This document shows positions 2,639 through 18,799 of a stretch of DNA of 64,000 bases, one piece after another; the stretch's first letter is position 1, and the number at the start of each line of letters is the position of its first letter. A program made the translations under genes and the position numbers. The notes under the pieces were generated by a model, which was not told the DNA's origin, did no database searches, and saw nothing but the letters and a program-made list of their open reading frames with translations. The stretch comes from Glandiceps talaboti (lineage: Eukaryota; Hemichordata; Enteropneusta; Spengelidae), in assembly GCF_964340395.1 (NCBI RefSeq), contig NC_135557.1:22608725-22672724 (forward strand). Direction: 5' to 3'.

Positions 2639-3802
2639 TCAAGTGAGACTTGGTAATCGTCGACTCGCCAGAACAGTTTGTGTGACGTCATCAATGAGAT
2701 CTTCATCGACGGCTGATGTAGAATTGGTGTAAGATCTTTGTCTGTGTGCATTTTCATTTCCATCTTTCTTTTTCTCGTTATATTTTGTATTTGTCATTTT
2801 TGGTTGAAGGCCGCTATGGATGTCTTGTTCTCCCTTTGAAGTGCCACTGACGTCGAGTGGGGTTACTTTTTTCACGCTTCTCTTCTGTAAATATATTATT
2901 GAAATTATACAATAAGACAGAGTGTGTACGCTTTCTTATTGAATGTCGTTATGAGAGAAATTATCATCAAAGATGGATAAATACAAAAATGAAAATACGA
3001 TTTCTTTATTCTAACACCCTTACTACCGTGTCTTAAATGCATTCGGAGAGTTGCAGCTGGTTTTAAAATAACACACATTGTGGATATCGCAACGTTAATG
3101 ACTTACTTTGAACGTTGTCGAGCTCTCTATTTCTTTTTGGCGACGTACAAACAATCGCCCACCCGCCTGGAAGGGTTGAGAAAAAACAGTAGTGAAATAA
3201 AAATACAATTAAAACTGTTTCTGAACATATCTTGTACAATAATGTTAGTGAAAATGTAACATGCATGTAACTTTACACTGGTCTTATGAAAAGATAGCCA
3301 CACAAGAAAATGATTTTATGATGCTTTCATTATCATCGGCATCGGAATCATATCGAGAGTGTACATGGTTCAGCGTTCAAAGATTATACGAATAGGCCAA
3401 TGTTATGCAAAATATGATATTTGTAACACAATATCAGATAACAACAATATAAACATAACAGTATCAAGTTCTATATTTGATACTGTAACAATTGTAGATT
3501 GTCGCTGTAAAACATATCACGACACACATACAACTAAAAGTAACAAATCTTCACTGTCTGTGAACACTAACCTGTGTAGATGACTCATCTACATTAGAAT
3601 TAATGGTATTAACGTTGAGTGATGTAGTTACGTTCTTGTCAGTTCTATTTCCTTCTCTTACATGACGAGATCTTCTCGTCTTTCTTCTCACTGAAACAGT
3701 CGTGTCATCTTTTCTCTCAACTTTCATCTTTAGTTGTTCATTCTCGGTCTCCCAGGAAACTGTATCCGTACATATAACCCTAAAGTTCTCTGTCAGTTCC
3801 AT
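2639..3802 (-). CDS. Receptor cytoplasmic tail exons 18-20
   Basis: Three phase-0 exons encode about 178 residues with no membrane segment. The tail is basic and polar, with runs such as RRKTRRSRH and RRQKEIES and many Ser/Thr, which could be phosphorylation sites. Splice sites are strong: exon 19 is followed by GTAAGT and exon 20 is preceded by TTTACAG. The gene ends at TGA (2641-2639). I recognise no domain in the tail. Confidence 0.8.

Positions 3803-18799: not shown

Follow-up and report, generated by a model that had tools for sequence, protein, structure and literature searches.

A predicted lectin-headed class B receptor with an adhesion-type seven-transmembrane domain and without a recognised GAIN domain in the acorn worm Glandiceps talaboti

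Introduction

GAIN is the self-cleaving domain of most receptors in the adhesion class of G protein-coupled receptors (GPCRs). Secretin receptors (class B1) carry their HormR directly before TM1, without GAIN or GPS, and this HormR has six cysteines. In adhesion receptors that contain HormR (Pfam HRM), the spacing between HRM and the seven-transmembrane domain (7TM) is given as about 280-330 aa (PMC12716839). Several class B receptors with an N-terminal C-type lectin domain (CTLD) have also been reported. In the placozoan Trichoplax sp. H2, 28 of 36 CTLD receptors were assigned to the Secretin/Adhesion GPCRs, and a role in recognition and uptake was proposed for them (Kamm et al. 2019, PMC6321704). 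In amphioxus (Branchiostoma), a single adhesion GPCR was described as bearing a CTLD at its N-terminus (Nordstrom et al. 2008, PMC2246102; PMC6321704), and a domain table from 2014 has a 'GPRX' group in which Lectin_C and 7tm_2 are listed together (PMC8687355). Furthermore, 12 of the 40 adhesion GPCRs of the sponge Amphimedon are reported to be without GPS (PMC4302439). In the literature covered, which did not include the hemichordate GPCR survey (Krishnan 2013), no report was found either of a CTLD-HormR-7TM receptor lacking GAIN or of a CTLD GPCR from a hemichordate.

The locus analysed here lies in a window, meaning the whole stretch of 64,000 nucleotides under study (C10:22608725-22672724), of the Glandiceps talaboti genome, which was scanned as 590 Mb in 47 contigs. 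Like the placozoan CTLD GPCRs, its predicted product carries a C-type lectin head at its N-terminus, in front of a class B 7TM; many such genes are described in placozoans (PMC6321704), whereas no close paralogue of the acorn-worm receptor was found among the top candidates scored. With the amphioxus receptor it shares Lectin_C in the N-terminus of a deuterostome adhesion GPCR (PMC2246102), but the account of that receptor describes further extracellular domains (PMC6321704). An adhesion-type 7TM without GPS is shared with the Amphimedon receptors, whose N-termini are described as short, in contrast to the lectin, stalk and HormR of the acorn-worm receptor (PMC4302439). Lectin-headed class B GPCRs are rare, and are already described in placozoans and amphioxus; a preliminary description of the locus had implied that lectin plus class B 7TM was new, a claim that these precedents contradict.

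Gene model and its support

Rebuilding the receptor chain from the window gave 20 exons on the minus strand (18799..2639) with 2439 nt including the stop codon and 812 aa. All 19 introns are bounded by GT..AG and their phases are mutually consistent, so that the exon count, borders, phases and lengths of the preliminary description were reproduced exactly. Exon 1 (18706..18799) holds the start codon and a signal-like hydrophobic stretch at residues 12-30, as placed by splice borders and hydropathy. At the other end, exons 18 (3572..3802) and 19 (3107..3166) encode cytoplasmic tail without a Pfam match, and exon 20 (2639..2884) the tail end and stop codon; the first AATAAA 3' of this stop, at 2480..2485 on the minus strand, is a candidate polyadenylation signal.

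That freely chosen exons form an open chain does not by itself prove a gene. Ten of the 19 junctions fall within domain alignments (two in the CTLD, one in HormR, seven in the 7TM). The other nine are without homology support, namely E1/E2, the four from E4/E5 to E7/E8, E9/E10, and the three from E17/E18 to E19/E20. Independently of the chain, tblastn with relatives matched the TM3 exon (1.8e-6) and the first CTLD exon (3.2e-6), and a genome-wide 7tm_2 scan in six frames recovered the TM3 exon at 3.5e-7. Codon usage is too weak as proof of coding: the chain's frame scores best in only 9 of 20 exons, while 13 of 20 exons score as high as the best 10% among 132 intron ORFs. Rfam and tRNA scans and an NCBIfam search gave no match. 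Altogether, the lectin part and the 7TM part are each secure, the doubtful point being the bridge between them, and the gene model is considered real as a prediction from sequence. The preferred reading, to which we assign a probability of roughly 0.7, is that the locus is a single gene for a chimeric class B receptor that is lectin-headed, has an adhesion-type 7TM and is without GAIN.

Domain content and the lectin head

A Pfam search of the joined 812-aa product returned Lectin_C at residues 60-172 (E 2.5e-14), HRM at residues 315-363 (E 0.0026, under the gathering score) and 7tm_2 at residues 383-597 (E 1e-18), and hydropathy shows seven hydrophobic segments after one signal-like segment. 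Together with the alignments, these matches bear out the domain order noted earlier, which runs from a signal-like peptide through CTLD, Ser/Thr stalk, HormR and class B 7TM to a basic tail. The predicted chain has a long modular N-terminus composed of CTLD, Ser/Thr stalk and HormR.

Splice borders and Pfam distribute the CTLD over exons 2 (17913..18075; first part), 3 (16798..16958; middle) and 4 (16485..16592; last part), with motif comparison placing WIGV and QPD in exon 3 and DEHC and WRD in exon 4. The signature of the CTLD fold is present, with cysteines 40, 51, 68, 144, 163 and 171 forming the six-cysteine long form and the WIGL-like motif occurring as WIGV. At calcium site 2, calcium-dependent sugar binding relies on WND together with either EPN or QPD, the latter being the galactose-type motif. 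In the receptor QPD is kept, DEHC retains the glutamate of DExC, and WND has become WRD through replacement of Asn by Arg. The mannose receptor P0014 has a sugar-binding CTLD in which the corresponding motifs are EPN, DESC and WND, and the brevican-like P0015 combines QPD with WSD. Because the Asn of WND is lost, classical calcium-dependent sugar binding by the predicted lectin head is uncertain. A sugar-sensing or pathogen-sensing role, as suggested in the preliminary description, would be conjectural. In addition, no YxxL/I/V/M motif occurs in the cytoplasmic tail, and lectin-style tyrosine signalling is therefore not indicated.

The stalk as a bridge between lectin and 7TM

The connection between lectin and 7TM depends on three stalk exons, 5 (15831..15989), 6 (15293..15475) and 7 (14988..15050), all on the minus strand and all of phase 1-1. 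In the chain's frame their Ser+Thr fractions are 0.47, 0.48 and 0.48, against 0.04-0.22 in the other two frames. The background in 88 intron ORFs of at least 40 codons has a mean of 0.154 (sd 0.064) and a maximum of 0.375, reached by an ORF that is a microsatellite. Every junction from exon 3/4 through exon 8/9 is in phase 1, and phase-1 borders flank the lectin module (exons 2-4) as well as each stalk exon; the module and the single stalk exons could therefore be shuffled with the frame unchanged.

The bridge is also where the strongest alternative applies, in which two same-strand neighbours have been wrongly joined, one encoding a lectin that is either secreted or anchored (exons 1-4 or 1-7), the other a GAIN-less HormR class B receptor (exons 8-20). 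Errors of this type are known, since a lancelet Lectin_C-fn2 'fusion' proved by ESTs to be two genes, as that report states (PMC4967905). Among the species' database proteins of 447-1421 aa, where other proteins of the species are present, none contains the receptor, and there is thus no intact joined model in that range. Moreover, read-through beyond exon 4 meets a stop after six residues, though read-through is also short after the other 11 exons tested. Against the two-gene alternative, the three stalk exons are Ser/Thr-rich in one frame only, and that frame is in phase with both neighbours. The donor of exon 7 is the consensus gtaagt, and the HormR exon is the next acceptor in the chain. 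On the coding strand from 17172 to 12594 no AATAAA occurs, although the stretch from exon 4 to exon 10 does contain four ATTAAA. A simple filter applied to 16484..14648 revealed no other first exon carrying a signal-like core. A false junction is accordingly considered unlikely, and a single gene continues to be preferred.

The 7TM domain

TM1 and TM2 are encoded by exons 10 (13306..13403) and 11 (12897..12999), as supported by splice borders, Pfam, PDB alignments and hydropathy. Exon 12 (12409..12562), supported by Pfam, tblastn, PDB alignments and the genome 7tm_2 scan, carries TM3 and the start of TM4. Splice borders, Pfam and PDB alignments define the next four exons, with exon 13 (12056..12122) spanning TM4 to extracellular loop 2, exon 14 (6914..6974) the loop-2 cysteine and the start of TM5, exon 15 (6333..6406) the end of TM5 and loop 3, and exon 16 (5197..5323), for which hydropathy adds support, TM6 and the first part of TM7, including WIFG. 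Exon 17 (4538..4636) completes TM7 and begins the cytoplasmic tail, according to splice borders, PDB alignments and hydropathy.

The best 21 PDB sequences for this 7TM are all adhesion GPCRs, headed by ADGRL3 (62.6 bits, 3.5e-16), whereas the best class B1 receptor reaches 27.4 bits, which supports the earlier label 'B2-like'. The domain retains W-x-FG in TM6, and the TM3 Glu (W-x-x-x-E) of the aligned adhesion receptors is His. Its 7tm_2 score is 68 bits, versus 180-184 for the relatives P0001, P0011 and P0012, and by sequence the 7TM is a distant family member, far from the norm. Such divergence, with the conserved TM3 Glu replaced, is also what a decaying or unexpressed gene, that is, a still-open pseudogene, could display, and the lack of an intact model among the database proteins described above points the same way. 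However, all 20 exons are without internal stops, the splice borders are intact and the Ser/Thr composition of the stalk is maintained, which makes a pseudogene highly improbable.

HormR and the missing GAIN/GPS

HormR is divided between exons 8 (14546..14647; first part) and 9 (14051..14136; second part). When only this segment is scanned, HRM reaches 23.9 bits (E 5.6e-5), short of its gathering score of 26.2. The four cysteines of the segment (316, 339, 351 and 367) and the landmarks W-P, CP and R-x-C can be aligned with P0001's HormR and, less closely, with those of P0012 and P0011. A genome-wide HRM scan made exon by exon gave 27 matches at E<=1, none of them at this locus. The score just below the cut-off is weak counter-evidence, because Pfam itself misses HRM in P0011, one of three accepted adhesion GPCRs (P0001, P0011, P0012).

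From the end of the HRM match (363) to the start of the 7tm_2 match (383) there are about 19 residues; in the BAI1 relative P0001, HRM ends at 346 and 7tm_2 starts at 651. Intron 9 (13404..14050, minus strand), the 647 nt between HormR and TM1, is the expected place of GAIN/GPS exons, and within it lies an inverted-repeat element (13546..13797) with 19-nt arms that are 95% complementary. Pfam found neither GAIN nor GPS in the 812-aa product, and none of the 10 listed minus-strand ORFs of intron 9 matched either. A GPS pattern was not found in the three coding-strand frames, and the window holds none of the genome's 137 GPS matches at E<=1 (best 150 of 179 candidates scored). As a positive control, the same Pfam scan detects GPS in three of three relatives (P0001, P0011, P0012). 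A further candidate exon in intron 9, near 13822, was rejected on account of a stop in the phase required by exon 9.

A census set 55 TM3-exon places from the genome 7tm_2 scan against 59 of the 137 GPS places. At 42 of the 55 places a same-strand GPS lies no more than 15 kb upstream, leaving 13 without a nearby GPS, the receptor locus included; at 6 of the other 12, an HRM match occurs at most 25 kb upstream, as would be expected of Secretin-type receptors. Comparison by eye of the remaining 78 GPS places with the 13 GPS-less places gave no neighbour. In the least probable alternative, the receptor is a conventional adhesion GPCR, and its GAIN/GPS exons escaped detection or are too diverged to be recognised. 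This alternative can appeal to the strong variability stated for GAIN sequences (PMC13197933) and to the majority of TM3-exon places with a GPS upstream, but it is opposed by the short gap between HormR and TM1, the unmatched intron-9 ORFs, the stop in the candidate exon and the window's lack of a GPS match.

The absent GAIN, more than the lectin, is the most unusual point of the receptor in the preferred single-gene reading, and the preliminary description had not mentioned it. Its layout would be a Secretin-like arrangement carried on an adhesion-type 7TM, and the tethered-agonist route looks closed.

Relation to adhesion and Secretin receptors

Comparison with both receptor classes gives a mixed result. 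The 7TM type and the long modular N-terminus are those of an adhesion GPCR, but GAIN with GPS is not found. With the HormR-bearing adhesion GPCRs (BAI/ADGRB, latrophilins) in particular, the receptor shares an adhesion-like 7TM and a four-cysteine HormR that aligns with BAI1, and it differs in lacking the GAIN/GPS present in all three relatives. With Secretin receptors it shares a HormR joined directly to TM1 without GAIN/GPS, whereas its 7TM sequence is nearer to adhesion receptors (62.6 vs 27.4 bits) and its HormR has four cysteines instead of six. A Methuselah ectodomain gave no Pfam match at E<=1 in the product. By membership, the predicted receptor would be neither a full adhesion GPCR nor a Secretin receptor.

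Proposed origin and mechanism

The chimeric gene may have arisen by exon shuffling, in which introns of phase 1 let a CTLD module be added to a HormR-7TM gene whose GAIN was lacking or had been lost. In the resulting protein, a stalk of ~135 residues, probably O-glycosylated and mucin-like, would hold the lectin head off the membrane, and the head might bind a surface glycan or protein. Because GPS and the tethered agonist are absent, the receptor would not be self-cleaved and would stay one chain, and ligand binding or clustering would therefore be relayed through HormR and TM1. From there the signal could, in the manner of Secretin-type receptors, reach the 7TM bundle and a G protein, and the basic, Ser/Thr-bearing tail may permit arrestin-type regulation and uptake. 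We infer that gating by the ligand may be direct, the receptor then working like a Secretin-type input on an adhesion-type bundle.

A broader evolutionary proposal is possible but tentative. A deuterostome adhesion-type receptor may have shed its GAIN, its GPS and its tethered agonist and turned into a lectin receptor that is gated directly by ligand and has a HormR-7TM unit of Secretin-like form. This would independently repeat the adhesion-to-Secretin step, the lectin serving as input. If true, lectin-headed GPCRs would extend to hemichordates, and a natural adhesion-type 7TM with HormR fused almost directly to the bundle would be available. Such a HormR-7TM fusion would allow a direct test of signalling without a tethered agonist, and would bear on the origin of Secretin receptors from adhesion receptors via loss of GAIN.

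Paralogues and genomic surroundings

In the protein database (447-1421 aa range), the search for close homologues yielded nothing beyond generic receptors (best 8.4e-10) and proteins with a CTLD alone. Within the acorn-worm genome, the 7TM query gave 45 matches at E<=0.001, eight of them the locus' own exons, and the top match elsewhere reached 48.1 bits at 26% identity among the top candidates scored. The CTLD query, the single query on which the lectin census is based, gave 133 matches at E<=1, three of them its own, with a best match outside the locus of 43 bits and 30% (best 150 of 184 candidates scored). Neither query revealed a close paralogue among the top candidates scored. L029 (C17:2.94 Mb), considered as a nearer family member, was set aside as a conventional receptor with GPS.

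A possible second lectin-headed GPCR is located on one strand at C16:2.841-2.871 Mb (L030-L032). This pairing of lectin and class B matches was found by eye from the genome 7tm_2 and CTLD match lists; Lectin_C (7.2e-10), HYR (7.3e-20) and a 7tm_2 TM3 exon (1.2e-16) lie within ~25 kb at C16:2.845-2.869 Mb.

The introns of the receptor gene contain additional features. In intron 2, a 123-bp tandem duplication (17187-17428) is present in two copies with 94% matches. Intron 13 houses, antisense to the receptor, an apparently intact non-LTR retrotransposon (7601-11446, plus strand) with two long open frames. The first frame matches the Baculo_FP second domain (1.4e-16), and the 980-aa ORF at 8504..11446 (+), which is not part of the receptor, matches RVT_1 (1.6e-33) and Exo_endo_phos (1.3e-7). 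Outside the receptor gene, a second reverse-transcriptase ORF of 456 aa (RVT_1 1.6e-29) is found at 60318-61688 (+).

Elsewhere in the window, two single-exon ORFs on the minus strand, at 20869-24930 and 36397-40254 (about 1350 and 1290 aa), each contain four Galactosyl_T stretches. Their products are tandem four-domain beta-1,3-galactosyltransferase-like proteins, and a canonical DDD-type motif is clear, by eye, in some of the repeats only. Finally, a patched-domain-containing-3-like gene occurs at 43545-57336 (-) in three nearly identical copies, arranged in tandem and spaced about 5.2-5.3 kb apart. The ORF at 43548-45101 matches a patched-domain protein of Glandiceps talaboti with 100% identity across 99% of the query, followed by a match from Ptychodera flava at 55%.
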